Positions 27,813 through 53,406 of a DNA stretch of 53,606 nt are shown one piece after another. Position 1 is the first letter of the stretch. Each line of letters begins with the position of its first letter. Below the pieces are notes generated by a model, which did not search any database, was not told the DNA's origin, and saw nothing but the letters and a program-made list of their open reading frames with translations. Source of the DNA: Elusimicrobiota bacterium (GTDB taxonomy: Bacteria; Elusimicrobiota; Elusimicrobia; UBA1565; UBA9628); contig JACQPG010000040.1 of assembly GCA_016207665.1 (NCBI GenBank), positions 1 through 53,606 on the forward strand, given 5' to 3'. Made by a program: the position numbers and the translations under genes.

Positions 27813-29858
27813 TCAAGGACTCCAGGGACTGGACAGGCGCACGGGCATCTGGCAATAGTTCGAGAAATAGGGGATCAGGGCCTTGATCTGGGGCACGTAT
27901 TGCTCGGCCATCAACTCGCCCGCCCGTATGAGCTCGCGGGCCCGATGGAGCTCGGTCCAACGGAAACCTTTGAGATCCGGGTGCATCAGCACGTGCGCGG
28001 GCGCCATGGTGGCGCGGGCGATCTCATACTCCATGGTATAGATCATCTGGAAGAAAACCTGCACCATATTGGGAGCCTTGAGCGCGTCGGGAAGGGTGAG
28101 CTCCTTGAGGCTCTCCAGCCCCATGGGCAAGGATGGTCCCGCTTTCCTGCGCCGATCATTGCGATCGCCCGCCGGCATGGTGAGATTGACCGCCACCAAG
28201 ATGTCGGCGCCCATCTCGGAGAGCGCCTTGGTGGGAACCGGGGCGACCAAACCTCCGTCCACCAGATATCGTCCGGCGAGCCGGATGGGCGCGAATACCA
28301 GGGGAAGCCCGCAGCTGGCGCGTATGGCCTCGGCCACCCGGCCCTCTTTGAGCACCACCTCCTCCCCGGTCTCGATGTCGGCGGCCACGCAACGAAAAGG
28401 GATCTCCATGTCGGAGAATTCGCGCGTGCCGAAATAGGATCTCAGGAAGCGCAGCAGGGTCTGGCCCGCGAAGAGGCCGGAACGCGGAAGCGTCAGGTCC
28501 CAAAACAGGTTCTCATACACCCATCCCCTGTCGACCCCCACCGCGATCTCCTCCATCTCTTCGGGCTCCAAGCCCAAGGCGTAAAAGCCCGCCATCAGGG
28601 CGCCGATCGAGGTTCCGGAGATGAGATCGATGGGAATGCCTTCCTTCTTGAAGGCCTTCAGTACCCCTACATGGAAATGCCCTAAAGCCGCGCCGGTGCC
28701 GAAGGCCAGTCCTAGCTGAACCTTTCCCAGCCGGCGGGCCAATCTCTCCATGGCCCTGCGAGCCTTGGGATGGATATCCAAGGCCTCGAAAGGAGACCCG
28801 GAAAGCTCGAATCTCTCGGCGATCCCCTCGCTCCAAGGAATGGCCTGGCTCTGGCGGCTGATCGTCAAGCCCTCCTCGGCGTCATGTTCCCCCAGCCACA
28901 GACACTGCACCTTCTTGGGATCGGCGATCGAAAGCAGCTCGGCCTCGAGTTGTCGGAATTGGGGCCGATTGGACCCTGCGCCCGCCAAGAGAGCCGTATC
29001 CGCCTCGGTCAGGACGCTCTTTTCGACGTCGCCCAACTCCCCGCCGAGCCCGACCAGGACCAGATCATGGGTATCCCGCAAGAAGTTGAGGAAAAGATAG
29101 ATCCCGCTATAGAGCCGGCCGGCGAGCGCGGAGGCGGGAAGGTTAAATATCTCGAGACCCGAGGGATGCTGTTGGGCCAGGGTGCGAAGCCGGGCGGGCT
29201 CGCGAAAGTTGATTTCCCGAAGGGCTTGCTCGGTGGCGATCACCGGCTTGACGCCCAAGGCCCGCGCGATGGCTCCGGCATCGGGATTCATGTCCACCAG
29301 GAGCGTGCGCCTCCGGGTCTGCTCCAAAAGCTGCAGGGCCAGATGAAGAGTGAAGAGGATGCGATCGCCCTTGCCCAGGGCGGCGTTGACCGCGATGAGC
29401 TGGGGGCGATCGAGCCTCCGTTCCGGGCCGCGATGGGATTCCCTCAGGCGATTGACGAGCAATCTCGAGAGGTGGAGGAGTATGGTCGGGTTGTCCCTCA
29501 ATATCTCCTCGAAATCGACCCTGGGAAGCTTCAGGAACTCGCAGGTGGTGACCAGCCTGATGGTGGTGGTGCGGGCCTCTCCGGTCAATACCCCGGCCTC
29601 TCCCAGGGTCTCTCCCCTGCCCACCACGGCGGACACGGTCTCCATGCCCTTGGCGGTATTGATGACATTGACTTGCCCTGAAGTCACGATATAGAGCGCG
29701 TCGGGATCGTCGCCCTGAGAGAACAAGGTCGAGCCCTTGGGCAAGGACAAAGGCTGCAGGCAAAGCGCGATGCGCCACAGATCGCCGGCGGAGAGCCCGG
29801 AGAAAAGCGGTATCCGCTTGAGAAACGGCGCCCAGATGGGTATCTCTTCAGGCGTCAT
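27813..29858 (-). CDS. cNMP-binding, MinD-like and patatin (NTE-type) phospholipase fusion
   Basis: 681 aa from ATG 29858. Residues ~15-135 are a cyclic-nucleotide-binding domain with the phosphate cassette GETLGEAG-LTGEARTTTI (Glu and Arg kept). Residues ~150-320 look like a ParA/MinD fold (RTLLVDMNPDAG, HDLVLVGLGGE) but the Walker A is degenerate (NAALGKGDRIL). The C-terminal patatin domain has GTSIG (Ser417) and VDGG (Asp534); its oxyanion loop is GTGAALGHFHVG rather than the usual GGG-RG. The domain order parallels neuropathy target esterase. Probably a lysophospholipase or esterase at the inner membrane, controlled by a nucleotide. Confidence 0.9.
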   Translation of the reverse strand: MTPEEIPIWAPFLKRIPLFSGLSAGDLWRIALCLQPLSLPKGSTLFSQGDDPDALYIVTSGQVNVINTAKGMETVSAVVGRGETLGEAGVLTGEARTTTIRLVTTCEFLKLPRVDFEEILRDNPTILLHLSRLLVNRLRESHRGPERRLDRPQLIAVNAALGKGDRILFTLHLALQLLEQTRRRTLLVDMNPDAGAIARALGVKPVIATEQALREINFREPARLRTLAQQHPSGLEIFNLPASALAGRLYSGIYLFLNFLRDTHDLVLVGLGGELGDVEKSVLTEADTALLAGAGSNRPQFRQLEAELLSIADPKKVQCLWLGEHDAEEGLTISRQSQAIPWSEGIAERFELSGSPFEALDIHPKARRAMERLARRLGKVQLGLAFGTGAALGHFHVGVLKAFKKEGIPIDLISGTSIGALMAGFYALGLEPEEMEEIAVGVDRGWVYENLFWDLTLPRSGLFAGQTLLRFLRSYFGTREFSDMEIPFRCVAADIETGEEVVLKEGRVAEAIRASCGLPLVFAPIRLAGRYLVDGGLVAPVPTKALSEMGADILVAVNLTMPAGDRNDRRRKAGPSLPMGLESLKELTLPDALKAPNMVQVFFQMIYTMEYEIARATMAPAHVLMHPDLKGFRWTELHRARELIRAGELMAEQYVPQIKALIPYFSNYCQMPVRLSSPWSP

Positions 29859-29905
29859 ACCATGCGCCGGGCGGACTATTTTCCCGCTAGGCCGATCGGC
29901 AATTA

Positions 29906-29911
29906 AGTATA
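29906..29911 (-). promoter_or_regulatory. Candidate -10 (TATACT) for the patatin fusion gene
   Basis: TATACT on the minus strand inside the tail region of the nudF-like gene; would give a ~40-nt leader. Weak support because the gene may also be read through from upstream. Confidence 0.25.
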
Positions 29912-29913
29912 AT

Positions 29914-30489
29914 CTACCTGCTTGAACGCCGCCAGAGCGCGCAGGCCAGCAGTCCGATGACGGTCTTTGAGTCCTTGATCTTGCCCGATCTGACCCACTG
30001 GAGCGCCTGTTGAAAGGGCACGGTGACGACCTGGAGGAACTCATCCGGGTCCGGAGAGAAACGCCCCGGGATCAGCCCTTCGGCCACGAAGAGATAGAGC
30101 AGTTCGCTGGCGAAGGCCGGGGTGGGCCAATAGTTGACCAGGGGCCGGATGCGGCGGGCCGAATAACCGGTCTCCTCGCGCAATTCCCTTTTGATGCAGC
30201 GCGTGACCGACTCCCCTGGATCGAGTTTCCCGGCGGGAAGCTCCAAGGTCGTCTCGCCGACCGGGTGGCGGTACTGGCGCACGAGCACGATGTGGCCGGG
30301 ATCGAGGAACGCGACGACCCCGACCGCGCCGGGATGATCGAGGAATTCGCGGGTGGCCAGACGGTCGTTGGGAAGCCTGACCGTATCGACCCTGAAGTCG
30401 ACGGCGGCGCCGGCATAGACGCGCTTGCGCTTGATCAGGGTCTCGGTCAAGCGCGGGTCGCGAGCAAAGACGTTTTTAGGGACCTTCAC
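29914..30489 (-). CDS. nudF: NUDIX hydrolase, ADP-ribose pyrophosphatase-like
   Basis: 191 aa from GTG 30489. The full Nudix box is at residues 87-109: GKLDPGE, then REL and REETGY, fitting GX5EX7REUXEEXGU. The N-terminal strand domain and LVRQYRHP, ETTLELPAGKL are characteristic of ADP-ribose pyrophosphatases (NudF group). Hydrolyses ADP-ribose to AMP and ribose 5-phosphate. Only 20 bp separate its start from that of dnaE; TATAAT lies 8 nt before the GTG. Substrate call is by family resemblance. Confidence 0.85.
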   Translation of the reverse strand: MKVPKNVFARDPRLTETLIKRKRVYAGAAVDFRVDTVRLPNDRLATREFLDHPGAVGVVAFLDPGHIVLVRQYRHPVGETTLELPAGKLDPGESVTRCIKRELREETGYSARRIRPLVNYWPTPAFASELLYLFVAEGLIPGRFSPDPDEFLQVVTVPFQQALQWVRSGKIKDSKTVIGLLACALWRRSSR

Positions 30490-37972: not shown

Positions 37973-39271
37973 GTGGCACCGACCGTTTTACCGGCTCTGC
38001 TGGCCCTGCTGGCCCTGGCTTTCCCCCTTCAAGCGGCTTCTCCGGGAGCGATAGAAAAGGTGCTCACGCTCGAGGAGGCGCGGCGCCTGGCCTTTCTCAA
38101 CGACGCCCGGCTGCTCTCGGCGGAACAGGACAAGATCATCGCTGAAGAGCGGGTCAGGGAGGCCCGCTATCTTTTCTTGCCGGAGTTCGGACTCCAGGCC
38201 AGCGCCACGAAATACGAGGCTCGCTATCCCTTCTCTCTCTCCGGCGATTTCCGGAACATCCTGCTCTTTCCGGACAATCCCCCCACCTATGGGGCGAACA
38301 CCGGCAACATATACTCGGGCCGGGGCTACATGCGCATGTCCCTTTACGAGGGCCGCCGCAACATCAACACCTTGCGTCTGGCCCAAGCCGCGCAGAAGCA
38401 AGCCACCAGCAATTACGAGTCGGTCAAGATGGACTTGGCCCTATCGGTCAAGGAGGTGTTCTATCGCCTTCTGTTGGCGCAGGAGAGGGCCCGCGCGTCC
38501 CGGCAGACCCAGGAAGCCGCGAAACGCGTGCTCAGCGGCGGACGTTTGGACGGCTGGGAGCGGGTCGAGGTCGAGGCCCTGCTGGCCAGGGCGCGCGCGA
38601 CAGCCTCCGAAGCGGCCCATAACCTGGACCTAAGCCGCTTGGCCTTCCTCAAGAATCTCAATCTAGAACTCGACACTCCTTTCCGAGTGGAAGGCAAGCT
38701 TGAAAGCCAGCCGGTGGAAATGAACATAGAGAGAGCGGTGCTCTGGGCCATGGAGTTAAGGCCTGAGCTGCAATCGGAGACCTACAAGGCTCAAATGGAC
38801 GCGATCTCGGTCAATCTCGCCTCCGCGCGCCGCAATCCCACCGTATTCCTGGCGGGCGATTACGAGCTCACCGGATTGCGATTTCCACTGCGGGACAACA
38901 ACTGGGACGCCACGGTCGGCATACGGATCCCCCTGTCCTATGACTATTGGAGCCAGATAAAGCAGAAGCGCGCGGAGCAACGGCAGGGCCAGCTCAAGCG
39001 GACCGAGCTCCAGGATCGGGTCAGGCTCGAGGTGCGCCAGGCCTATGAGACCCTGCAATATTGGCAGAAGGAATGGCCCCTGCGACGGCAGCAATTCGAG
39101 CGCGTGGAGAAGCTTTTCGAGGCGGTGAGCGGACAAGGGGGCGGTTCCCTGGCTAGATTACGAGCCATGTCCTCGGTGCTGGACTTGAAGCTGGCCTCAC
39201 TCTCCGCCTTGACCGAGCATATGCTCGCCCATGCGCGGCTCGAGCGCGCGGTCGGTCGGCAAATCCCGTGA
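37973..39271 (+). CDS. TolC-family outer-membrane channel protein
   Basis: 432 aa from GTG 37973. Signal peptide TVLPALLALLALAFPLQA. The two-fold TolC pattern is visible: LTLEEARRLAFLNDARLLSAE in repeat 1 and NIERAVLWAMELRPELQSE in repeat 2, each followed by long helices. A trimeric outer-membrane duct for an efflux or type I secretion system is expected, but no inner-membrane pump or membrane-fusion protein is adjacent. The downstream gene starts on the overlapping GTGA. Confidence 0.88.
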   Translation: MAPTVLPALLALLALAFPLQAASPGAIEKVLTLEEARRLAFLNDARLLSAEQDKIIAEERVREARYLFLPEFGLQASATKYEARYPFSLSGDFRNILLFPDNPPTYGANTGNIYSGRGYMRMSLYEGRRNINTLRLAQAAQKQATSNYESVKMDLALSVKEVFYRLLLAQERARASRQTQEAAKRVLSGGRLDGWERVEVEALLARARATASEAAHNLDLSRLAFLKNLNLELDTPFRVEGKLESQPVEMNIERAVLWAMELRPELQSETYKAQMDAISVNLASARRNPTVFLAGDYELTGLRFPLRDNNWDATVGIRIPLSYDYWSQIKQKRAEQRQGQLKRTELQDRVRLEVRQAYETLQYWQKEWPLRRQQFERVEKLFEAVSGQGGGSLARLRAMSSVLDLKLASLSALTEHMLAHARLERAVGRQIP

Positions 39272-40236
39272 GCTCGGGGTCCATGAGGCGGGCCTCGGCG
39301 GTATTGCTGTCCATCTATCTGGCGACAGCTCCGGCGGCAGCGCTCGATCTCAGCGACGATGGCCTGCTGCGCGACCATCTATGGCGCCAGCTCACGGCCA
39401 AGCCTAAAGGAGAAAGGCCCGTCGTGGGATTGGTCTTCTCCGCCGGCTCGCTGAGGGCGGCGGCCCACGTGGGAGTGATCACCGTCCTCGAAAACGCCGG
39501 CTTCCCCGTGGACGTGGTAGCGGGCACCTCCATGGGCGCCATCGTCGGGGCCCTTTACGCCGCCGGCAAGCCGATCAAGCGGCTCTGGGAGCTGGCCCTC
39601 GGCCTGCGCATCAGCTCGGGAAGCAACTATAACGCCTTCAACCTCCTGCGCCTGCTGCTTTTCGACCGGCTGCTCTCGTCCAAGAATACCGAGAAGTTCA
39701 TCCGCGATGAGATCGGAAGCCGGAGCTTCGAGGAGCTGAAAAAGCCCTTTGCCTGCGTGGCCATGGACCTCTACTCCGGCGAGGGGATCATATTCCGGGA
39801 AGGCGAGCTGGCTCCGGCCGTTCGCGCCAGCATGAATCTTCCCGGCATCTTCGCTCCGGTCGAATACCGGCATCGCTATCTGGTCGACGGCGGAGTCGTC
39901 AACTACATCCCTATCGACGCCGCCAAGCTCCTGGGCGCGGATTGGGTGCTGGCCAGCGTCACGGAGACGGACTATACCTATTCCAAGCCCCAGAACGTGC
40001 TGCAAAGCCTCGAGCAGGTCATCGACATACGGGGCACCTTGCTGGCGCGCGAGCAGAAAAAATCGGCCAACTTCCTCATCGAGCCGCCGGTAGGCGATAT
40101 AGGCTTTTACGACACCAGCCGTTCATACGAAGCCATCGCCAAGGGCGTCATGGCCGCTCATCGCCGCATCGGCGCGGCGATGGAGGAATACATCCTTTTC
40201 TCGTTGGATTGCCTGCTCAAGGATTACATCCCATGA
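39268..40236 (+). CDS. Exported patatin-like phospholipase
   Basis: 322 aa from GTG 39268. N-terminal signal (SAVLLSIYLATAPAAA) then a patatin domain: VGLVFSAGSLRAAAHVG, GTSMG (Ser88) and VDGG (Asp207), so the Ser-Asp dyad is intact. The Gly-rich oxyanion loop is replaced by SAGSLR. Export implies a periplasmic or outer-membrane lipase, unlike the cytosolic patatin at 27813. Coupled to TolC upstream (GTGA) and to the TPR protein downstream (ATGA). May act on envelope lipids. Confidence 0.88.
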   Translation: MSSGSMRRASAVLLSIYLATAPAAALDLSDDGLLRDHLWRQLTAKPKGERPVVGLVFSAGSLRAAAHVGVITVLENAGFPVDVVAGTSMGAIVGALYAAGKPIKRLWELALGLRISSGSNYNAFNLLRLLLFDRLLSSKNTEKFIRDEIGSRSFEELKKPFACVAMDLYSGEGIIFREGELAPAVRASMNLPGIFAPVEYRHRYLVDGGVVNYIPIDAAKLLGADWVLASVTETDYTYSKPQNVLQSLEQVIDIRGTLLAREQKKSANFLIEPPVGDIGFYDTSRSYEAIAKGVMAAHRRIGAAMEEYILFSLDCLLKDYIP

Positions 40237-41932: not shown

Positions 41933-42827
41933 TCGGAAGATGACTCTCCGACTCGAAGGATGTTTTACGGCCCTGACCACGCCTTTCAGGGCCGATGGCC
42001 AGGTCGACGAGCCCGCCCTGCGCCGTTTAGTGCGGCGCCAAGCCCAGGCCGGGGTTTCGGGCCTGGTCCCCTGCGGCTCGACCGGAGAAGCCGCGACCTT
42101 GACCCATTCCGAATTCCTTAGGGTCTTGGAGATCACGCTGCGGGAATCCCAGGGGCAACTTCCCGTGATCGCCGGCATCAGCGCCAACGCCACATGGAAG
42201 GCTTTGGAGCTCAGCCGGGAAGCCGAGCGTCTCGGGGCCGACGGCCTGCTCGCGCTGGTGCCCTATTACAACAAGCCCACGCAGGAGGGGATGTATCGGC
42301 ATTTCCGGGAGATCGCCGCCAACACCCGTCTTCCCATCATCGTCTACAACATCCCAGGGCGCACGGGCGTCAATCTATCGCCCAAGACCTTGGCCCGGAT
42401 CGCGTCCGACTGCCCGAATGTGGTCGCGGTCAAGGAGGCGGCTGGAAGCCTCGATCAAGTGAGCGAAATTCTCTCGCTTTCTCCGAAATTGACCGTGCTC
42501 TCGGGCGACGACAGCCTCACCCTGCCCATGATGGCGGTCGGCGCCAAGGGCGTCATCTCGGTGGTCTCGAACATAGCCCCTCAGCAAACCGAGGCCCTTT
42601 GCCGGGCATTCCTATCGGGCCAGAACAAAAAGGCCGCCAAGCTTCATCTCAAGATGTTCCCGTTGATCAAGGCCCTCTTCATCGAGACCAACCCCATCCC
42701 GATCAAGGCGGCCCAGGAGATGCTGGGGCTTTGTCGCGCGGACCTGCGCCTGCCCCTGACGCTCATGAGCTCCGCCAATAGGGCCCTATTGCGCCGCGAG
42801 ATCAAGGCTTTCGGGGCCCCTCGCTAA
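41925..42827 (+). CDS. dapA: 4-hydroxy-tetrahydrodipicolinate synthase
   Basis: 300 aa. Condenses pyruvate and aspartate semialdehyde. Schiff-base Lys170 (VVAVKEAAG), Tyr141 and Arg146 in VYNIPGRTG, and GSTGEAATL and YYNKPTQEG are canonical. GGGAGA lies upstream of ATG 41925; a second ATG at 41940 is possible. Last gene on the long plus-strand transcript. Its TAA overlaps the convergent moxR-like TAG in CTAA. Confidence 0.96.
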   Translation: MPNRKMTLRLEGCFTALTTPFRADGQVDEPALRRLVRRQAQAGVSGLVPCGSTGEAATLTHSEFLRVLEITLRESQGQLPVIAGISANATWKALELSREAERLGADGLLALVPYYNKPTQEGMYRHFREIAANTRLPIIVYNIPGRTGVNLSPKTLARIASDCPNVVAVKEAAGSLDQVSEILSLSPKLTVLSGDDSLTLPMMAVGAKGVISVVSNIAPQQTEALCRAFLSGQNKKAAKLHLKMFPLIKALFIETNPIPIKAAQEMLGLCRADLRLPLTLMSSANRALLRREIKAFGAPR

Positions 42828-44446
42828 GACCTGCTCCACAAGCGCATCCAATAAATCCAGGCGCCGGAGATCGCGCTGCCCGCCGAAGCGAATGCCGCGC
42901 TCACCCACAATGGTTCCCAGCGCCGAGTGGCCGGCTTCTCCGGCTCCTCGTTGAGAGGAGGCTCCCATTTCGGGTAGCTGTCGATCCCCGGTTTGATCGT
43001 TCTTAATATTTGGTCGAGATAGAACCCGGCGTTTTCCGTGGTCCGACCCTCATGCAAAAAGAGGCGATGGCTGGCCACATCCAAGAAAACGCTTTGCACC
43101 TCGTCCGGAGTGATGGCCTTCTTGCCTCGCTCGAGCGCCAACACCGAGGCCAGCTTAGCGATCATGGTCGGTGTTCTCTCGGAAAGAGGCCATTTAACCA
43201 CGTCCTTGAAGTCTAGACCGTAAAGATCCGGCCTTCGGCTGGCTCTGACCAGGTGCGCGATATAATCCTCCATCTCCGGGCTCAGTTCCACGCGTTCGGC
43301 CAGCTCGCCGATCTCCATGATCTGCTCGATAGTAGCCACGGCCTCGGCCTTGGGCCGGTGAGAGCTCCGGTTGCGACGCATGATCTCCTTGATCTCCTCG
43401 ATATCTTCGGTAGGACTGACATAGATCTTTTGCCCGAAGCGATCGATCTCGGCCTCGGTCAAAGGATAGGTGCCCTCCATTTCATCGGGATTTTGGGTGT
43501 AGAAGACCACCAAGTTAGGATGCAGGGCCACCGTGCGGCCGTCGCGAGTAGAGATCGTGCGATGCTGCATGGCTTCGAGCAACGCCGCCTTCGTCCTGGG
43601 TTGGCCGCGATTGCCCTCGTCGACCAGTATCAGCACGGCAAGGCCTCCCATGGGACCCGGCCGGAAAACAAAGCCCTTCTCTCCCGTCTTTTCTCCGGTG
43701 GAGGAATCCGTGACTTCGACGTATTCCCAGTGGCCGAGAATGTCGGCCGGCATCAGATCCGGCGTCATTTGGATTCGGGCGAAGGCCGCCTCGATGGCCC
43801 GCGACAGGGCCAGCACCGTCTGGGTCTTGCCCACGCCCACCCCCCCCTCGATGAGCAGATGCTCCCGAGCCACCAAGCTCCGGATCACCGCGTCGACCAT
43901 CTTGTCTTGGCCCACGATCTCCTTCTTGACCTCAGCCCTCAATTTCCTGATGATATCCTGGGCCTGAAAAACCTCCTCGTCACGGATATGCGGAATCAGC
44001 GCCCCTGACGGAGAGGCCGAAACCTGGCCATCAACCTCCATGGCGACGGGCTCCCGCGTCGAATCTCGTGGGCCCGCGTTTTCTCCCATAAGCTCCGCTC
44101 CCGCCTCATGCGCCTGCGATTCGCTCATCTCCTCAACGGGTCCGCGAAGAGCCAGATTCTCGATCATCGCCGCCATGGCGCCGTAGACCTCTCCGCCTTG
44201 GAAGGCCGCAAACTGATCGGGCGGCATTTTCGCCTGAAGAAACGCGTTGAATTCGGCTCGATTAGCCCAGCCCCTAGCCTGAGGCGAGCGAACCCCCGAA
44301 GGCCGACCGGCGACCGGACGGCCGTTAACGCCCGCACTGGAGCCGGGTTTCGTGGCTCTATGCCCGGACGACCAGGCTTGGCCGGCGCATAATAGACAAG
44401 CCAGAACGGAAATGATCGATACTCTTATGGCGACGACGCTGATCAT
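42824..44446 (-). CDS. MoxR-type AAA+ ATPase with N-terminal export-like segment and C-terminal TM helix
   Basis: 540 aa from ATG 44446, with AAGGAG 6 nt upstream and an ATGA overlap with the giant gene. Residues 1-25 (MISVVAIRVSIISVLACLLC) look like a signal peptide or anchor. A low-complexity stretch follows to ~150. The AAA+ core has EIVGQDKMVD, Walker A GGVGVGKT (201-208), LMPADILGHWEY, FRPGPMGG, Walker B VLILVDEGNR (271-280), LLEAMQHRT, QNPDEMEGTYPLTEAEIDRF. The C-terminus has one hydrophobic helix (~513-535) with basic residues after it. MoxR ATPases are normally soluble and act on VWA/DUF58 partners; here the partner gene is directly upstream. Confidence 0.92.
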   Translation of the reverse strand: MISVVAIRVSIISVLACLLCAGQAWSSGHRATKPGSSAGVNGRPVAGRPSGVRSPQARGWANRAEFNAFLQAKMPPDQFAAFQGGEVYGAMAAMIENLALRGPVEEMSESQAHEAGAELMGENAGPRDSTREPVAMEVDGQVSASPSGALIPHIRDEEVFQAQDIIRKLRAEVKKEIVGQDKMVDAVIRSLVAREHLLIEGGVGVGKTQTVLALSRAIEAAFARIQMTPDLMPADILGHWEYVEVTDSSTGEKTGEKGFVFRPGPMGGLAVLILVDEGNRGQPRTKAALLEAMQHRTISTRDGRTVALHPNLVVFYTQNPDEMEGTYPLTEAEIDRFGQKIYVSPTEDIEEIKEIMRRNRSSHRPKAEAVATIEQIMEIGELAERVELSPEMEDYIAHLVRASRRPDLYGLDFKDVVKWPLSERTPTMIAKLASVLALERGKKAITPDEVQSVFLDVASHRLFLHEGRTTENAGFYLDQILRTIKPGIDSYPKWEPPLNEEPEKPATRRWEPLWVSAAFASAGSAISGAWIYWMRLWSRS

Positions 44447-47400
44447 GATGTTCTCCTTCGCGATTGTTTCAACGAACGGTAATGCGAAATCACGGTCTCG
44501 ACATATCCGCTCTCCGGTTGGACGCTCACCGGAGGGATCCTGGCTTCTCCGGCCGCGAGCTCGAACTCGCGCTGGAGTTGTCTGATCTTCCACGAGACTT
44601 CATCCTGAACAGCGCGGCTGCCCCCATCGATAAAGGCCCGCAGGCCTGTCTCGGCATCCTCCAAGTCCGCAATCGCTCCAGGCAAGTCCGGGCGCAAGGC
44701 CAGTCGTATGAGGTGGAGATTCTGCCTTTGCGCCAGCCGCTTGAGCGGCCCGGCATAGGCCTGCGCCGGCTCGAGAAAGTCCGAAATGACCACGACCCGC
44801 CCCCGGGATCTAAAAACCTCAAGGGCCTTGGCCAGACCAGGCCCCAGATGTCCCGAGCCGGCCTCCGGCTCGAACTCCGCGAAGCGCTCCACGATCTGCA
44901 TCGCGTAGGCGCGGCCAGAGCGCGGAGGCATGAAAATTGGCTGCCTGCCGCCCAAGATGATCGCCCCGATGGGGATCGAGTGATGTCCCGAATTGAGCGC
45001 CACCAAAGTCGCGATGTCCTGGGCGGCCCGGCGGGGAGCCGACCGGCTTAAGTCGAGGACGATGAGCCGGGGAAGATTCTGGTCGATGTTTTTCCTTCGG
45101 ACGTAAAGTTCGCCCGTCCTGACATACAGCTCCCAATCCATGTTCCTGGTCTCGCCTCCGCGATAGCGGGACATCTCGGCGAATTCCAAGCCGTCCACCC
45201 CAACTTTGCGAGAGCGCGTGGCTCCCGCGACGAAGGAGTTGGGCGTAGGACCTACCTCGAGGTCAAGATCCTTGTAGCGCGCCAAGACCTCAGGCGAAGG
45301 TTCCCGCGCCGGAGAAGCGGTCTTGCGCCGGCCTCGCCATCCCCGGACCAATTCTAGGCCCGCCCAGAAGATGAGCGCCGGGATCGCCGCAAAGAACGCG
45401 AGCGCGAACCACGGCAGCCCGAGGAAAGTAACGGCCTTCTCCGAGGCCTCGGCCGCGCTCGTCGCCAAGCCAAGCCAGGATACGGACAACAAGGCCGCGC
45501 CCACATAATTACCGCCGTGCGTCCACCGGCTGTCCTTGGACAATAGGAAGCGGCTCATCTGCGAACGACGGTCCATGTCCTTGAGTCCGCCCTGGCCGGG
45601 GAAATGGCTGTTGTAAATCCTCTCCAACTCGCCGAGGGCCTTTCTGAGGGCCGCCTTTTGCTCGTCATTGAGCGCAACTGGCTGCTTGAAATCGATCGAA
45701 TTCCACCAGGCATAGCCTTGGGCCGGCTCGAGTTTGCCCCAGATGCCCTGTTTGAGTATCCCATCAAGATAATGGTAAATCTTTCGGAGCATTTCCTTCG
45801 AATAGCGGGGGAAGAGGGCCGCTTCCTTGACCAGAAGTTCGTCCCTGTGATAGCTGTCGACGCTGCCTTCATGGAGATGTTTAGAGTAATCCTGCCGGAC
45901 CAGATCCGCCTCCTTCATTTTCTGGAGCAGGCTCGCCACTGGAAATGGCTGAATCACCTCAAAAAGCGCTTCATTGACCTTCTCGGCCAGAGCGTCCTCG
46001 ACGGTGTCCCCGGGATAGACTCCCGCCTTTTCGGCCAGCTCTAACAAAACGGGCAATATCGCGCGATGCTCATCGAGGGTCTTCCGTCCCTCCTCGTCGA
46101 AACCGACTCTCTTCGCCCAAAGCTCCTCGTGGAGCCGCTCGAACGCCCGCAGGTGCTTGAGTTTATACAGATAACGCTGGGAGTATTTCTTGACTATGAT
46201 GCCGACCTCCTCGAGCCGTTCCCAGGCTTTAAGCCGGCTTTGCGCCCCAGAGACCAAGGTGTATCTGAAAGTCTCATCGATCACCTCGAGGGCCAGCTTG
46301 GAGAGAATGCTCTGCGCCAAGGGATTGCGCGATTCGATCGCGGCATTGAGTCCACTCGACAGCCCTTTCAATGCCTCCAGCTTCCCCGCGATCTTCAAGG
46401 ACCCAAGAGCGGAGGTGAGCACATCCTCGACGCCCTGCGCATCCATGCCCTTGGAATTCCGGCCCAAAAACTCCATCACCCAAAAGTGGGCATGGATTTT
46501 GTCCGCCTCGATTTGGTTGTAAAACCCGGAAAAATAGGTGAGAAATACGTCCGGATCGGAGGCGGCGGAGAAAGCGGCTTCTATTTTTTGGCGGACATTC
46601 TGATCCGCCGATGAGTCGGAATTGGCGATCAATGGCAACTCCGAAAGGGCCTGAAACAACGAGTCTTCGCGCGCCTGGCCGGGATGGAACGCGGCGACGA
46701 TGCCGTCGATCTTTGCCAGGGACAGGATGATCGCCCTCTTTTCTTTCCATTCCATCCGGTTGACCTGGCGTTGGGTCCGCCATTCGCCGGACTTGCGGGC
46801 TTCGGACAAGAAGTTCCTTAGGCGGCGCAAAGTGCCCAGATCATAGCTTTGATAATAGACGAGATCATCGTCATAGCCCATGTCGAAGGCGGGCGGCGCC
46901 AACTTGGCATGGCGCAAGGCCTCAAGATAGCTGAATTTCGAATCGCGCCATATCTCGTCGAGCGCGAGGTTGATCTTGTCGGCGATGCGATCCTCAGCGC
47001 TGCCCCCGGGCACAACGCCCACGCGGGAGGCGATCTCGGCCAGAAGGGGCAGTGAGCGCGCCGATCGATCCGCAAACTCAAGCTGTTGGGGAGATAGTCT
47101 TCCTCCCGAAGCGGCGGCGCGAGCGGTCGAATTTGCGGCCCGGCCCAAATCATTGATATGGACGACCTTGTAGTATGAGCGCATCGGCTTGGGACCCAGA
47201 AGAGCCCTCAGACGCTCTCTCGGGTCGCGCGTGGGCCGGCTCGGCGGTATCTCCCGAAGCACGCCATTGGCCTTGAGCGCGGCTTCAAGGGCCGGGAAAA
47301 GCTCCAGGCCCTGCTTGACGATGGCGCGAGCTTGGCGATGCGCCTGAATCTCAACGGCCCTCGAAAGGACGCCTCGGTTTGAAAGCGGCGCTCCCAGGGC

Positions 47401-50400
47401 CAGAGCGAGACCCTGCTCGGTCCACGAATCCGGCACCTCGGCCTTTTGGCCCTCCATCACCTTCTCGATCGCCTTGACCCGTTCCTCGTCCGCCTTGGCA
47501 TAGGCGTCGAAGGCGCGATCCATGATCGCGGTCCCCTTCGAGTAATCGCCCTCTTGTCCCGCCGATGATAGGTATTGAAAAAGGAATCTCTGAGCCCAGA
47601 ACTGAAGCCCTGGGTCATTCTCATGGGCCTTTGACACGGCATCAAGCTTGGCCATGAACTTGTTTCCGGCGAATAGAGAATCCATGATCGCCCGGGCCGT
47701 GAATTCTTGCACCTTGGAATTAGAGCTGCGGAGAAACACGAAGAGTCGATTGAAGACCCTCTCGCCTCCGATCCGCGTCCCCAATTCGACCATCCTCAAC
47801 AGACGCCGGATGATCTCGGGCTCCTCGGCGCTTGCCAACATGCGCCGGGAGAGAAAGTCGATGACCGCGTCGTTTTCCCTGACGATCATTCCGGCCAGGA
47901 GCTTGTCCTCGGTCGACCGCCTCATGGAGAGCAATTTCGGATCTATCGTGAAAAGGGCTTCCAGGATATTATCCGCTCCAGGATGAGGCGAATCGCGCAG
48001 TATCTCGATCGCCCGGTCCAGCGCCTCGGGATCGATCCTCTCGGGGGCTCTTAACACGGGAAGCACTCGGGTCACTATCAAGGGATCGGCGGAATAATCG
48101 GCATGGAAGATATCAGCATGCTCCCCCCAGAAGTTCTCGAAGAGATGGGAATCAGCGGCCGGGCGTCCCGCCCATCGGCTGGCGGCCTGGTAGGATAGGA
48201 AGCCCGCCGCGGGCAATGAGATCGCCAGAATAAGCGCCGCGGCCCAGGAGGCGGGTCGTCTCCAAATGGCCGCGGTTCGGGTAGGAGCCGCCTGCTGCGG
48301 TCTCTCCGCGGCACGGGAGCCTGCCCCGGTCAGTCGCTCGAGATTGCGCGCGACTTCGAGATGATCCAACCATGCCAAGCCGCGCCGCGCCCGGACATCA
48401 AGAAGACGCAGCGTCAGAGCATCCGTGCGCTGGCCGCCTCTATTGAGCTCGCCGATCCTGTCGGCCAATAGCTCCTGGACCTGTCTTGAATTGCGCGAAA
48501 GGAACGCGGCGACGAGCATATGCGGCGCAAGCGCATCCTTGTAGGCTTCAACCACCAGTCCGCGCTTGCCGGATTCGGAGGCCTTCGCCCAGCGCCGGGA
48601 AAATCCCGCCAGCTGTTGCGACCTAAATCCCGTCAAACCGAATATCACCGGCAGATCCGTTTCTATGCCACGCTCTATGTCCCCCCGGCGCGCCTGCAGC
48701 GCCGCGCGAACCCGCTTATGAAGGAATCCGCCGCTAAGCAGTTCTATCACGGCCAGTCCGGCCAGCCCTAATAAAGCTGCGGCTACGGTCAGTGAAAATA
48801 ATGGGGATAAGCTGCCGATCGCTCCCAAGACCAAGCCGGCGCCGGCCGCCTCGCGCAGTCCGCCATTCGACCGGGGCGGGATCAAGCCGAGCAAATAATC
48901 GAGCAGCATCAGCCCCAGCGTTGGAATCAGGAACCAGCGCGACACCGGTTGCGCGACCTCGATAACCTCCTCCCGGCTGCCTCCGCTCTTGAGGGCTATG
49001 CTTTCGATCAATCCGCCGATCGACTGCCCCTCCTCGGCGATGACCAACTCACCACCGGCGCCTCTCGTGAGCTTCCCCAGGGCTTCCCTGTCGAGCCGGG
49101 TCTTGGCGATGTCTCCCTTCTCATTGAGAACGTACTCGAAGCCTTGGCCGTCCAGGGTGGGCACCCGCATCTCCACCCCCTTTTCCGAGCCCACGCCCAC
49201 CGCGTGAACGATCAGACCCTCCTTGCGCGCCAACTCCGCAGCCTCCTCGGCCCACTGAGCCGCGCTGCGTCTATCCCCTGGGATGCCAAAATCCCCATCC
49301 CCGTAATAAATCACGTGAGTCGGCCGGGTCCCGTCGCCGATGCGCTTAGCCTTGTCGCGCATCTTAGCCGCGGAGACGATGGCTTCTATGATGTTCGATC
49401 CGGGGTTAAGCCCCGCGCGCTCGTCTCTGATCTCCTGGATCTTTCGGCGCAGGTTGCCGTGATGAATCGAGAGGAAGGCCGCCCAGCGCGCCGAGCCGGC
49501 CATGGCGACCAGGCCCAAACGCGCGCGGCCTATCACCCGATCGAGCAAGGAGGACAAGCCTTGGACCATCCTCTCCCCGCGGCCATCGATCGCGTCCAGG
49601 CCGCTAGTCGAGGCGTCGGAAATGAAGATAAAGTCCGCGTCGGGAAGCCTCAGTTTCGCCGGTTTTTCCCCATGGAGCGGACCCGCGGCGGCCAGGCCCA
49701 GGCCCGCCCCAATCCCCAGGCTGAGCGCTGATCGGATCAGGAAACGCCTTCGACCTGGATCGAATCCGGGATCGGAGGCCGCCGGCGGGCTTCTGAGCAA
49801 GCGCCGGTCCCTGAGGCGAAGCATGAAATTCGCCGCAAGAACTCCCGCCAATACCACGAGGATCACCGGCAGCAGGGACAAAACCCAAGGAGCGCTGAAG
49901 GCCAGGCCCGAGGCAGCCGCCTCACCGGCGTGGGCCAAAGTGGGCGCTCCCAACAAGGCCGACAGCAACCCGGCGCTTAAGAGCACGGACCATACATTGT
50001 CGCCCTTGCGTATGATGGCCCTTCTTTTAGCCTCTTCATTCGCCTTTTGCTTGGCCTCGATCTGGTCGATGAGTTTTTTCAACCCTTGACCCGATCCGAC
50101 CTGATCCTCGGCCGGCTCCGGTTCCGAAGGCGCCTGCTCCTGAGAGCTGGAATCCTTGTCCTTGGCCTGGTTCTTCTCGCCCTTTTGTCCCTTCTTATCC
50201 CCGGACTTCCCGGCCTTATCGCCCGGCTGGCCTTTTTTCTCCTTCATCAAGCTCATCGCCACGGCCAGGTTCTTGCGGGCTGAATCGTTATCCGGATATT
50301 CGCGCAGGGCCCGCCTGAAGGCCCTAACGCCCTCTTCGAAAGAAGCGACGTCCTTTTGATCTTTCTCCCACTTGGCGATCGCGGCCCGGCCCGCGTGATT

Positions 50401-53400
50401 ATAAGCGACGGAAGCCACCTTGGGATCCGGCGTCGAGGCCGCCGCTTGGGCGTAGTTAGACTGAGCCTCCGGGAGCTTACCCATCCTATAATAGGCGTGG
50501 CCCAGGTTAATGTAGATTTCAGGCATATCGGGGTTGTCGCGCAACGCCCGCCGATAGGCGAGCACGGCGCCCTGATAATCGCCTTGCTCGTAGAGCTGAT
50601 TGCCCCGAGCCAGCTCCAAGGGCTGCTGTCGGAAAAGAGCCGCCGCTCCGGAGCGTGAAGCTGGCGCAGGGGTCTGGCTCGCCTGGGCCGGAGAGGGCAG
50701 GGCTAACTCAAGGGCCGGCAAGGCCAGCGCCAGGGCCATCACGGCCGCGATCGCCTCGAACCGCCTCAAGGGCCACAACCCCATATGCTTCCTGATCAGA
50801 AATAAGACGAGGGCAAGCAGGACCAGGGTATCCTCATAATGAATCTGCGCCCGCTGGTCGCGCACGACAGCCGGCTGCTTTTCCCGCTGGCTAATCTCGA
50901 GCATGGTCTCGACGAAGGCTTTCTCATCGCTGACCGCATAGGACTTGCCTCCGGTCATGGACGCCCACTTGCGCATATTCAATTGGCTGGTCGATGGTTG
51001 TCCCGTTCCGCTAGGAGACACGGTCTCGATGAAATAGAGATGGCCGTTAAAACCGTGTTTCTCGTTGAGGTCCTTGACCATGCGCGCCACGACGATGGGC
51101 TTTATTCCCGTATTGGAGTCGCCGTCAGTGACGCTGATGACCACCTTCCATTCCTCGGGCCTGAGCACTTTCTTGAGCAGGTCGGGATGATCCTCCAAGT
51201 ATCTGACGGCTGAGGCGAGGCCCGAGGATTCAAGAATCGCAAGGGCCCGCTCGACACGGGGATCCTGCCGGGCCTTTAGACTCATTTGACCCGAAACCAA
51301 ACCATATAGCCGTGAAGGAGCCTGCCCAAGCCACCGGCGCAGGCGCGCCGCCGCGCCGGCGGTCTTTTCCGCCGCGGGCTCGGCCGACTGAAGCTCCTCC
51401 AGATTGGTCCGGATGATCAACTCCAGAGACAGCAATTGCCCATCGCCCAAAGCCGTGCTGCCACCCGCTGCGTCGAACTGGGCACGGGCTCCGATGAGGG
51501 CGTCCGTGTCGGAGGCAAACCCGCTCACAAGATAAGCCCGGTCTCCGAAAGTGACCAGGGCGATGAGGTTGTCGCTCCCCTTGCGTTGCTCGAGCACATA
51601 GCGTCTGATCGCCTCTTGAAGCGCGGCGACGAATCCGCTCATGCTGCCTGAATTATCGCCGTTAACCACGGATCGCGTGACCGGAACGACCGAGGTCTTG
51701 CCCATGTACCCGATGGAAGGCCCCATCAGTGCCAGTATCACGAGAGCGATCTCCGAGAAGCGCAGGAAGTTGTCCACCCACAAAAGGCGCTGACGCCAGG
51801 ACTTGGTTTTGGGGTAGCCTACCAGGCTGGGAGCTTTCAAGGCCGGGCGCCTGCCCTTAAGAACATAGCGCACCAAGAAATAAGCCGCCAGAAACGGAAG
51901 GGCGGCCAAGGATCCCCATTCCCAGGTCAATATCAGGCCCATGGGCAGGCTCAAGTCCATCAGCCGCGCGCCTGAGGCGCGCGGCTGAGCCTCCGAACCA
52001 AGCCCGAGCCCGCGGATCAATGCCGTCAAATCATCATTATCCGCCCGCCTCTGCTCCGGGCCGGCCCGGCCGCCTTCGAAGCGGAAACGCTGGGCATTGT
52101 CGGCCAGTTTCTCGAAAACAGCCTGCTGCTCTCTCGATAGCGCCAAGCCGGAAACAGCCTCCTTCAAGGTCGCGGTTCCCGGCGCCGGAAGCTCGAGCCC
52201 GAAGCGTTCCAGCAAGGCCATTGAAAGCGTCTCGAAAGCCTCCGTGTAAAAGTCGAATTGAGACATCGAGTCCAAGCTCCGGCCCAAGGCGCGGGCCCTT
52301 TCGAACGCGGGAGAGGCGGATTGCCGCTTCAAGCCCCGGTATCTCGCGCGCAATCCCACGCCGAAACCCGCCGCCGCGGCGGCGGCCAACAGGGCTAGGG
52401 CGCCGATGACGCCGACGTTGAGCCTGTCCGGCGTCCGGGATGGGTCGATATCATCGAACCAGGCCTTTTCGCCGGGCGCAAGCTCCGGCGCGACTTCAAC
52501 GCCGGCTCCGGGAACCGTGATCATGAGCTCCCGGCCGCCTTGGCCGCCCGCGGGAACGGCTTTGAGCTCGATATCCGCGATGGCATGCCGCCCCGCCTGG
52601 AACGGCATAAGCTGATAAGACCATTCGGCGCTTTCGCCGGCTTCGAGCCGGCGCTTCTTTTCTTGAGGGTCCGGCCGCCAAACCTCGAAGGCTCCGGGCA
52701 GGGCCGCCGCCAGGGCCTTTTGAGGCGACACCTCTACGGGAACGCCGGAGTCGTTACGCAAGCGCAGCTTGACCGCGAACAGCCTGCCGAAACGCGCCGG
52801 TTGCGATATCGAGATCTCGCCCTTGAATTGCGCCGCCGCATGAGGCTGCCGATGAGCGGCGGCGGAATCGGCCCAGGCGGCAGAAGGAGGCAGGAAGCGA
52901 GGATGGGGCGACAGCGAGCTCAAGGCCAAAAGACCCGAGAGCGCGAGCGCTCGCAGCCGAGAAGAACCCCGGCCCGCTGCCGGGGAGGAGGCGAGCGGGG
53001 GACGGACGGCGGGAGCCCCCCCCTGGGTCAAGGTTTCTAGACGCGAACCGATCCCGTGGACTTGGTCGTCCGGCCCACGTCCGATCGGAGCTCGGAACTC
53101 GACCTCGGCTAAAAAGCCTTTGATCGGCGTCAAGGAGGCGCCTAGAGTCCTGAGGCCTGGGGCTTCTAAAAGCGGAGAGGAGGCCGGACCGCGGCCAGAA
53201 CCAGGCAGGCTCGAGATCGGAGGAGTCCGGCGCGGCGCAATGAGGCGGGACGCAGAGGCATTGACCGGGAATCTGCTTCTTGTTTTCTGGGGCAATCGCC
53301 AAATCTTTGCGGCAGCCGAATAGCACTCGGACCCCGGGGAAAGAGCGACAAGCGCCGCGCAAAGCGCGGCAGCCAGAGACCGTTTTAACCCGCTCCCAAA

Positions 53401-53406
53401 ACGCAT
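44443..53406 (-). CDS. 2,987-aa fused Bat-system protein (BatD-BatA-BatC-BatB-helical-DUF58)
   Basis: Starts at ATG 53406 with GGGGAA 6 nt upstream and a signal peptide (RSLAAALCAALVAL). Order: BatD-like Ig domain ~190-310, TM ~330-352, DUF4381-like helices 365-470; BatA-like TM pair ~488-568 and VWA with MIDAS GDNSGSMS (Asp584, Ser586, Ser588) to ~840, TM ~858-872; BatC-like TPRs ~930-1055 and Lys/Gln-rich tail; TMs ~1138-1195; RRRFLI at 1219 and a second VWA with SDASTS (Asp1264) to ~1470; TMs 1490-1555; helical region ~1560-2630 with a duplicated ~150-aa unit; TM pair ~2633-2688; DUF58 from 2709 with YRGGETRNMDW. All are normally separate proteins of the MoxR/Bat (aerotolerance) operon. 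Coupled to the ATPase gene by ATGA. No frameshift seen. Confidence 0.9.
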   Translation of the reverse strand: MRFGSGLKRSLAAALCAALVALSPGSECYSAAAKIWRLPQKTRSRFPVNASASRLIAPRRTPPISSLPGSGRGPASSPLLEAPGLRTLGASLTPIKGFLAEVEFRAPIGRGPDDQVHGIGSRLETLTQGGAPAVRPPLASSPAAGRGSSRLRALALSGLLALSSLSPHPRFLPPSAAWADSAAAHRQPHAAAQFKGEISISQPARFGRLFAVKLRLRNDSGVPVEVSPQKALAAALPGAFEVWRPDPQEKKRRLEAGESAEWSYQLMPFQAGRHAIADIELKAVPAGGQGGRELMITVPGAGVEVAPELAPGEKAWFDDIDPSRTPDRLNVGVIGALALLAAAAAAGFGVGLRARYRGLKRQSASPAFERARALGRSLDSMSQFDFYTEAFETLSMALLERFGLELPAPGTATLKEAVSGLALSREQQAVFEKLADNAQRFRFEGGRAGPEQRRADNDDLTALIRGLGLGSEAQPRASGARLMDLSLPMGLILTWEWGSLAALPFLAAYFLVRYVLKGRRPALKAPSLVGYPKTKSWRQRLLWVDNFLRFSEIALVILALMGPSIGYMGKTSVVPVTRSVVNGDNSGSMSGFVAALQEAIRRYVLEQRKGSDNLIALVTFGDRAYLVSGFASDTDALIGARAQFDAAGGSTALGDGQLLSLELIIRTNLEELQSAEPAAEKTAGAAARLRRWLGQAPSRLYGLVSGQMSLKARQDPRVERALAILESSGLASAVRYLEDHPDLLKKVLRPEEWKVVISVTDGDSNTGIKPIVVARMVKDLNEKHGFNGHLYFIETVSPSGTGQPSTSQLNMRKWASMTGGKSYAVSDEKAFVETMLEISQREKQPAVVRDQRAQIHYEDTLVLLALVLFLIRKHMGLWPLRRFEAIAAVMALALALPALELALPSPAQASQTPAPASRSGAAALFRQQPLELARGNQLYEQGDYQGAVLAYRRALRDNPDMPEIYINLGHAYYRMGKLPEAQSNYAQAAASTPDPKVASVAYNHAGRAAIAKWEKDQKDVASFEEGVRAFRRALREYPDNDSARKNLAVAMSLMKEKKGQPGDKAGKSGDKKGQKGEKNQAKDKDSSSQEQAPSEPEPAEDQVGSGQGLKKLIDQIEAKQKANEEAKRRAIIRKGDNVWSVLLSAGLLSALLGAPTLAHAGEAAASGLAFSAPWVLSLLPVILVVLAGVLAANFMLRLRDRRLLRSPPAASDPGFDPGRRRFLIRSALSLGIGAGLGLAAAGPLHGEKPAKLRLPDADFIFISDASTSGLDAIDGRGERMVQGLSSLLDRVIGRARLGLVAMAGSARWAAFLSIHHGNLRRKIQEIRDERAGLNPGSNIIEAIVSAAKMRDKAKRIGDGTRPTHVIYYGDGDFGIPGDRRSAAQWAEEAAELARKEGLIVHAVGVGSEKGVEMRVPTLDGQGFEYVLNEKGDIAKTRLDREALGKLTRGAGGELVIAEEGQSIGGLIESIALKSGGSREEVIEVAQPVSRWFLIPTLGLMLLDYLLGLIPPRSNGGLREAAGAGLVLGAIGSLSPLFSLTVAAALLGLAGLAVIELLSGGFLHKRVRAALQARRGDIERGIETDLPVIFGLTGFRSQQLAGFSRRWAKASESGKRGLVVEAYKDALAPHMLVAAFLSRNSRQVQELLADRIGELNRGGQRTDALTLRLLDVRARRGLAWLDHLEVARNLERLTGAGSRAAERPQQAAPTRTAAIWRRPASWAAALILAISLPAAGFLSYQAASRWAGRPAADSHLFENFWGEHADIFHADYSADPLIVTRVLPVLRAPERIDPEALDRAIEILRDSPHPGADNILEALFTIDPKLLSMRRSTEDKLLAGMIVRENDAVIDFLSRRMLASAEEPEIIRRLLRMVELGTRIGGERVFNRLFVFLRSSNSKVQEFTARAIMDSLFAGNKFMAKLDAVSKAHENDPGLQFWAQRFLFQYLSSAGQEGDYSKGTAIMDRAFDAYAKADEERVKAIEKVMEGQKAEVPDSWTEQGLALALGAPLSNRGVLSRAVEIQAHRQARAIVKQGLELFPALEAALKANGVLREIPPSRPTRDPRERLRALLGPKPMRSYYKVVHINDLGRAANSTARAAASGGRLSPQQLEFADRSARSLPLLAEIASRVGVVPGGSAEDRIADKINLALDEIWRDSKFSYLEALRHAKLAPPAFDMGYDDDLVYYQSYDLGTLRRLRNFLSEARKSGEWRTQRQVNRMEWKEKRAIILSLAKIDGIVAAFHPGQAREDSLFQALSELPLIANSDSSADQNVRQKIEAAFSAASDPDVFLTYFSGFYNQIEADKIHAHFWVMEFLGRNSKGMDAQGVEDVLTSALGSLKIAGKLEALKGLSSGLNAAIESRNPLAQSILSKLALEVIDETFRYTLVSGAQSRLKAWERLEEVGIIVKKYSQRYLYKLKHLRAFERLHEELWAKRVGFDEEGRKTLDEHRAILPVLLELAEKAGVYPGDTVEDALAEKVNEALFEVIQPFPVASLLQKMKEADLVRQDYSKHLHEGSVDSYHRDELLVKEAALFPRYSKEMLRKIYHYLDGILKQGIWGKLEPAQGYAWWNSIDFKQPVALNDEQKAALRKALGELERIYNSHFPGQGGLKDMDRRSQMSRFLLSKDSRWTHGGNYVGAALLSVSWLGLATSAAEASEKAVTFLGLPWFALAFFAAIPALIFWAGLELVRGWRGRRKTASPAREPSPEVLARYKDLDLEVGPTPNSFVAGATRSRKVGVDGLEFAEMSRYRGGETRNMDWELYVRTGELYVRRKNIDQNLPRLIVLDLSRSAPRRAAQDIATLVALNSGHHSIPIGAIILGGRQPIFMPPRSGRAYAMQIVERFAEFEPEAGSGHLGPGLAKALEVFRSRGRVVVISDFLEPAQAYAGPLKRLAQRQNLHLIRLALRPDLPGAIADLEDAETGLRAFIDGGSRAVQDEVSWKIRQLQREFELAAGEARIPPVSVQPESGYVETVISHYRSLKQSRRRTS

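Follow-up and report, generated by a model that had tools for sequence, protein, structure and literature searches.

A single-frame Bat-type fusion protein, paralogous to the separate bat genes, in an order of Elusimicrobiota

Abstract

Is a 2,987-amino-acid (aa) open reading frame (ORF) in an Elusimicrobiota genome that genome's Bat (Bacteroides aerotolerance) operon collapsed into one gene, or a system of its own? The window, here contig C13 in full (53,606 bases), from a metagenome-assembled genome of 2.78 Mb in 161 contigs, encodes this protein, hereafter the giant, together with a MoxR ATPase. The giant is a real, conserved, single-frame and paralogous Bat-type machine with a large new module. 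We place at roughly 0.7 the probability that it serves as scaffold to a second, paralogous envelope machine of the MoxR-VWA (Bat) type, a single-chain chaperone found mainly in one order of the phylum.

Gene organization

The giant ORF lies at 44443-53406 on the minus strand, starts with ATG and has no internal stop, which confirms the single uninterrupted frame proposed in a sequence-only reading of this DNA. Its modules and its partner gene are as follows; residues are those of the window giant.

53302..53406, minus strand: N-terminal hydrophobic tag, signal-like, of the SPGxxxYxA type, residues 1-35 (alignment of 14 giants and profile searches)
52861..52959, minus strand: internal second signal-peptide-like segment behind a low-complexity linker, residues 150-182 (hydropathy, lysine/arginine [K/R] bias)
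51973..52839, minus strand: DUF4381-type module, residues 190-478, with an immunoglobulin (Ig)-like domain, a transmembrane segment and a helical C-terminal domain (hhalign, PF14316, structure model)
50752..51966, minus strand: BatA-like module, residues 481-885, with VWA1 at 570-854 (Pfam VWA_2, PF07584, tree)
50002..50751, minus strand: BatC-like module, residues 886-1135, with a weak hydrophobic lead, TPR and a charged tail (TPR, BatC_Lepto)
48835..49911, minus strand: BatB-like module, residues 1166-1524, with VWA2 at 1251-1472 (Pfam VWA, VWA tree)
45487..48723, minus strand: all-helical module, residues 1562-2640, with a repeated unit of ~150 aa (structure model, profile repeat at 45832-46197)
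44446..45306, minus strand: DUF58 module, residues 2701-2987 (PF01882, E 1.6e-22, 13 of 13 giants)
42824..44446, minus strand: MoxR AAA+ ATPase with a signal-like N-terminus, its start overlapping the giant's stop (AAA_3, E 4.7e-36)

Pfam matched VWA_2 (residues 584-656), TPR (933-999), VWA (1260-1410) and DUF58 (2750-2940) in the window giant. Both VWA domains keep the DxSxS site, as had been claimed (DNSGS at 584-588, DASTS at 1264-1268). Every one of the 13 complete giants, this one included, has two VWA domains, and the D, S and S residues of their metal-ion-dependent adhesion sites (MIDAS) are invariant across all 13, as are T651 and D761 of VWA1 and D1370 of VWA2. A TPR block with a Lys/Gln tail and a DUF58 with a YRGG-TRN-DW motif had also been described; the tail is Lys/Gly/Gln-rich at ~1054-1108, and the motif reads YRGGETRNMDW from residue 2748. 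Over the complete giants, DUF58, VWA and TPR were each matched in 13, the BatA N-terminal domain (PF07584) in 9 and BatD (PF13584) in 1, all at E<=0.01. NCBIfam BatC_Lepto matched the BatC-like module at E 2.2e-9, under the family cut-off. A model of the DUF4381 and BatA modules (residues 185-885) has a strand-rich domain, a transmembrane segment, a helical domain and a VWA fold, with a mean predicted local distance difference test (pLDDT) score of 66 and a predicted template modelling (pTM) score of 0.39. Foldseek matched it to many VWA proteins; BatB of B. thetaiotaomicron (3ibs) ranked 22 and an aerotolerance-related protein of B. fragilis (4jdu) ranked 27, behind other VWA proteins.

The first domain had been called BatD-like, and this call was not upheld. 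The window segment scored 16.8 bits against PF13584, below the cut-off of 24.1 (E 0.011). Of the domain search proposed earlier, the TPR and second VWA parts succeeded and the BatD part did not. Aligned by hhalign, the first module matched the small gene that stands between DUF58 and batA in the canonical operon (99.0%, E 4e-18, 268 columns), and 6 of 9 members of that small gene matched DUF4381 (PF14316) at E<=0.1, the best at 4.3e-6. With true BatD, only the C-terminal helical part of the module aligned (97 columns, 92%, E 6.6e-7), and BatD was rejected as the first module. By these profiles the module is DUF4381-type and true BatD has no counterpart in the fusion. BatD with repeated Ig-like domains, a mark of Bat systems, was thus not found in the giant.

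Between the BatB-like and DUF58 modules lie ~1,080 residues (1562-2640) that were overlooked in the earlier reading. Residues 1562-2560 matched no Pfam family at E<=0.1. The structure model of this part is nearly all helical (pLDDT 78, pTM 0.57), and the 50 Foldseek matches listed reach TM-scores of up to 0.17, with helical-repeat proteins that are nearly all eukaryotic. On these matches, its fold class is given as helical repeat-like and nothing finer. Part of the helical core profile recurs in 17 of 20 matching genomes, the remaining three being on cut contigs.

Relation to the separate bat genes

Contig C26 of the same genome carries a separate batA, a 571-aa VWA and TPR gene (batB/C) and batD. 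The contig ends inside the next gene, and the separate moxR and DUF58 genes of this genome, which would lie beyond that end, were not seen. Separate BatA- and BatB-type genes were found in all 14 genomes examined (the window genome and 13 relatives), of which seven carry the giant (G000, the window genome, with G002, G003, G005, G006, G012 and G014). In the relatives, the separate operon has the order moxR-DUF58-DUF4381 type-batA-batB/C-batD.

In a VWA tree of 59 rows, giant VWA1 (17), giant VWA2 (14), canonical BatA (14) and BatB (14) each form one side of a branch. Giant VWA1 joins canonical BatA at 96/89 and giant VWA2 is set apart at 100/100; the tree is unrooted, which leaves the partner of VWA2 unfixed, and it was built without the cut VWA2 of G003 (72 aa) and one weak match in L025. 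The 14 giant-linked MoxRs of the order make up one clade (96/93), with several long branches, in a tree from which the MoxRs of G023 and G033 are absent. Giant VWA1, giant VWA2 and these MoxRs all fall outside the clades of the separate bat genes. Since the separate genes coexist with the giant and the VWA and MoxR sequences form clades of their own, the giant is, as judged from sequence, a paralogous second Bat-type system and not the genome's Bat operon collapsed.

Such a collapse, of an entire Bat operon into one protein, was the claim of the sequence-only reading. The module set and the coupling to MoxR do resemble a Bat operon, and the observation that a Bat-type set occupies one frame, coupled to MoxR, in an order unlike that of the separate operon is well supported. 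That the fused gene replaced the separate ones is very improbable: batA, batB/C and batD persist in the window genome and separate bat genes in the 13 relatives examined, the VWA and MoxR clades are distinct, and true BatD is missing from the fusion. Collapse of a sole operon was rejected on the coexistence of the separate genes.

A further cluster of MoxR, DUF58 and long VWA genes was seen elsewhere in the window genome (contig C58, L025:6324-13252).

Distribution and selection

The giant was found in 23 of 56 genomes of the order, 20 by the helical-core profile and three (G003, G005, G015) by the N-terminal part, their contigs stopping short of the core. A search for the same architecture in related genomes, suggested earlier, was therefore positive, and a full-protein search of 18 genomes likewise found the giant in long frames of several relatives. 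Thirteen of the 23 carriers have it complete in a single frame of 2,753-3,414 aa. In nine, a contig end or a gap cuts it short (G003, G005, G015, G021, G023, G031, G036, G038, G042). In the last, G033, the frame changes five times, three times within modules and twice near module borders. The 13 complete frames span three families, and the other 12 are 27-31% identical to that of the window; the same architecture in so many single frames from three families excludes chance.

In a phylum search that scored at most 4 candidates per genome, at least 21 of 340 genomes matched, and among the matches listed only G226 lies outside the order. It has the C-terminal half of a giant, followed by a MoxR with a signal-like N-terminus. 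Among named loci from the genome collection (the best 80 of 338), the VWA profile found a VWA ORF in 76, and a fused ORF of >1,400 aa with two VWA domains was present in four, three titled Elusimicrobia and one an untitled 'bacterium' that shares the giant's tag. Two others, L106 and L119, have two VWA matches in a short ORF of 393-395 aa.

Ratios of nonsynonymous to synonymous substitution rates (dN/dS) were obtained for six chosen pairs among the 13 giants, the window's copy left out. They are 0.30-0.54 for the whole ORF, 0.10-0.54 for the Bat-type modules and from 0.07 for the charged tail. The helical module has 0.40-0.64, compared with 0.15-0.38 for BatA and 0.16-0.47 for DUF58; BatB rises to 0.53 in a single pair, and values for the tag and linker are 0.30-0.77. 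Junctions lie at 0.13-0.64 except for 1.38 at BatA/BatC in the pair L140-L141. Read from these ratios, the giant is under purifying selection and the helical module evolves faster.

An assembly or frameshift artefact, or a decaying chimera, is accordingly hard to credit. It would draw on a contig end 200 bases from the start codon, on the long branches of the window copy and on the five frame changes in G033. Three of those five are inside modules, as sequencing errors would be, while 13 complete single frames occur in different genomes with invariant MIDAS residues, and dN/dS is <1 overall in the six pairs, none of them with the window's copy. The artefact was rejected on the 13 complete frames.

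A RidA-family gene stands immediately upstream of the giant in G006 (L017:12933-13313), and a similar-looking short ORF precedes it in G005.

MoxR partner and membrane layout

The moxR start codon ATG (44446-44444) and the giant's TGA share bases as ATGA, and AAGGAG lies upstream. In all 17 loci with enough DNA, a MoxR gene adjoins the giant on the same strand. If the likeliest starts are taken, the overlap of the two genes is at most 11 bases and the gap between them at most 16. Longer readings of the MoxR start give an overlap of 34 bases in G002 and, from the first possible start (GTG), of 151 bases in the window. The window MoxR has Walker A (GGVGVGKT) and Walker B (LVDEGNR) motifs. In the 15 MoxRs of the tree set, the Walker A pattern is kept in 14, L151 having SAPGLGKT, and Walker B in all 15. 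Giant-adjacent MoxRs carry signal-like N-termini, unlike those of the separate operon: the best N-terminal segment score is -0.1 to 3.1 in 15 adjacent MoxRs (<=2.0 in 13) and 6.8 to 11.7 in 11 separate-operon MoxRs.

At the junctions, no in-frame internal start led by a Shine-Dalgarno sequence was found in the window, and only two, unshared, among the 13 giants; separate internal translation was rejected on these counts.

Membrane segments were scored on an approximate scale. At most segments of the 13 giants, K/R bias fits the canonical Bat topology. It places inside the end of the linker, the C-terminal domain of the DUF4381 module, the BatA and BatB loops and DUF58, and outside the DUF4381 Ig domain, VWA1, VWA2 and the helical module. 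This is also the layout believed to hold for canonical Bat proteins. The internal signal-like segment is hydrophobic, scoring under the cut-off, in 11 of 13 giants and has more K/R ahead of it in 12 of 13, with AxA-like ends seen by eye; its K/R-rich side suggests that the linker stays cytosolic. Were the tag a normal export signal, the linker could not do so, and two signal-like sequences in a row are therefore a puzzle.

A rival reading is a polyprotein, made as a single chain and cleaved at internal segments that resemble signal peptides, the separate Bat-like subunits afterwards assembling as usual. The segment before the DUF4381 module does resemble a classical signal peptide in its K/R side and AxA-like end, and the BatA-BatC junction of the window is hydrophobic and ends in PAQAS. 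Only 3 of 13 giants have a BatC lead of sufficient hydrophobicity, and by eye no cleavable segment before BatA or DUF58 is shared among giants. A cut solely before the DUF4381 module would just shed the tag and linker. We consider the polyprotein unlikely.

The N-terminal tag and other tagged proteins

Residues P24, G25 and A31 of the tag are invariant in 14 aligned giants of the 16 with an N-terminus. A profile of the first 60 residues of these 14 (the N-termini of G015 and G018 were left out) matched seven ORFs of the window genome at E<=0.001: the giant, two tandem-ABC (ATP-binding cassette) fusions, one ABC protein, an M50-ClpB-type fusion and two ORFs of 449 and 475 aa, the last two with no Pfam match at E<=0.001. 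The six besides the giant lie on contigs C21 (L197), C154 (L198), C147 (L199), C9 (L200), C92 (L201) and C139 (L202). The ABC fusions have tandem transporters in one frame, and the M50 protease is joined to ClpB-like AAA domains. In another genome, a tagged M50 protease is fused to a subtilase domain (G039 C137, L205; 1,055 aa). A 4,577-aa ORF of the window genome (C79, L203:341-14071) matched the tag weakly at E 0.39 and no Pfam family at E<=1e-5.

Across 149 genomes of the phylum, the tag profile matched nine, eight of the order and G229 of the same class; the 20 negatives listed, of 140, include no member of the order. None of ten genomes of other phyla was matched at E<=0.001 (best 0.08). 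The profile is built on signal-like sequences and may also catch ordinary signal peptides. From these searches, the SPGxxxYxA tag appears nearly confined to the order and to mark other large fused proteins too. That the giant belongs to a set of long fused membrane proteins whose shared, lineage-specific tag ([SA]PGxxx[YF]xA after a hydrophobic stretch) is a dedicated targeting or assembly signal, as YSIRK motifs are for a subset of Firmicute surface proteins, the giant itself being a one-chain envelope quality-control machine, is a tentative idea with the odds against it. The tag may dip into the membrane or anchor there rather than carry the linker across, because the parts after the linker should start in the cytosol in the giants, the ABC exporters and the M50-ClpB fusion. 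Hydropathy counts gave no firm topology for the tag, for the ABC fusions or for MoxR.

Comparison with known systems

The giant and its MoxR resemble the Bat operon in having BatA-, BatB-, BatC- and DUF4381-type, DUF58 and MoxR parts and in their membrane layout as judged by charge. They differ in that the giant is one chain in another order, lacks true BatD and has the extra ~1,080-aa helical module; a tag and linker are added at the N-terminus, and MoxR has a signal-like N-terminus. Fusions of bat genes are known, according to the part of PMC3557215 covered, for batB-batC in Leptospira biflexa and in Borrelia burgdorferi, Spirochaeta thermophila and Francisella. Like the giant, these have bat genes joined in frame, and the separate locus of the window genome also joins a VWA domain and TPRs (571 aa); as described in that part, the L. 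biflexa fusion unites two genes, whereas the giant unites five operon modules and a new one. In the MoxR-VWA pairs RavA-ViaA and NorQ-NorD, as the covered parts of PMC10585395 and PMC9976466 describe them, a client complex is acted on by a MoxR AAA+ protein together with a VWA partner. That partner is a protein of its own; in the giant the VWA parts are fused and membrane-embedded.

Elusimicrobiota are enriched in proteins of >5,000 aa, according to the part of a huge-protein survey that was covered (PMC11573180). The phylum and the great length agree with the giant, at ~3,000 aa below that size, and the giant is not described in that part of the survey. Likewise, no MoxR passage was found in the covered part of an Elusimicrobia paper (PMC7203096). 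No fused Bat system of this kind appeared in the titles and abstract starts of the literature searched, most subscription papers being outside its coverage.

Proposed function

The sequences show the fusion with its conservation and paralogy, the coupling of the two genes, the metal-site residues of the VWA domains and the motifs of the ATPase. One membrane protein would bear DUF4381-, BatA-, BatC-, BatB- and DUF58-type modules and a large helical module, with a MoxR ATPase of its own. By charge patterns, the Ig domain of the DUF4381 module would face the periplasm together with the two VWA domains, the TPR and the helical module, whereas DUF58 and the C-terminal domain of the DUF4381 module would face the cytosol. 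By analogy with MoxR-VWA pairs, MoxR could, by using ATP, power conformational changes that pass through DUF58 and the VWA domains and remodel or mature clients in the envelope, and the faster-evolving helical module may be the client- or partner-binding part. The fusion would fix stoichiometry and assembly order; a 1:1 stoichiometry of the membrane complex is plausible.

Several points weigh against the proposal. We infer the giant's function from family knowledge alone. Three crossings that the canonical topology needs are weakly hydrophobic: the segment before BatA scores under the cut-off, and so as hydrophobic enough, in only 5 of 13 giants, that before BatC in 3 and that after the last transmembrane segment of BatB in 2. 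At the third transmembrane segment of BatA, K/R is commoner on the wrong side in 11 of 13, mean net charge not, and the weak segment before DUF58 would, if it crosses, conflict with the topology. The signal-like N-termini, read literally, would put the ATPase in the periplasm, and 12 of 15 adjacent MoxRs have no further strong membrane segment (3 have one). The MoxR of G226 falls outside the order's giant-linked clade, the window copy is divergent (VWA2 branch 2.42, MoxR branch 2.41), and the frame changes of G033 count here as well.

An alternative is that the VWA domains and MoxR serve a task other than envelope chaperoning, for example export or surface assembly, in which the helical module does the work. 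That module is the largest and has a high dN/dS, and the further tagged proteins include ABC exporters and proteases; the Bat-type metal-site residues and ATPase motifs are retained, and we regard this as improbable beside a Bat-type envelope machine.

Other features of the window

An 849-aa ORF at 16558-19104 matched no Pfam family at E<=1e-6. Two patatin-like phospholipases are encoded at 27816-30044 and 39268-40233, one of them joined to a cyclic-nucleotide-binding domain.

Implications

How Bat systems assemble and work is poorly understood although they are widespread, and a natural single chain fixes both the partners and their order in the membrane. As one gene, the giant gives structural work a handle on the system, and its large new module may be the part that binds clients. 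The tag common to several fused proteins suggests that Elusimicrobiota may have a targeting route yet to be explored.

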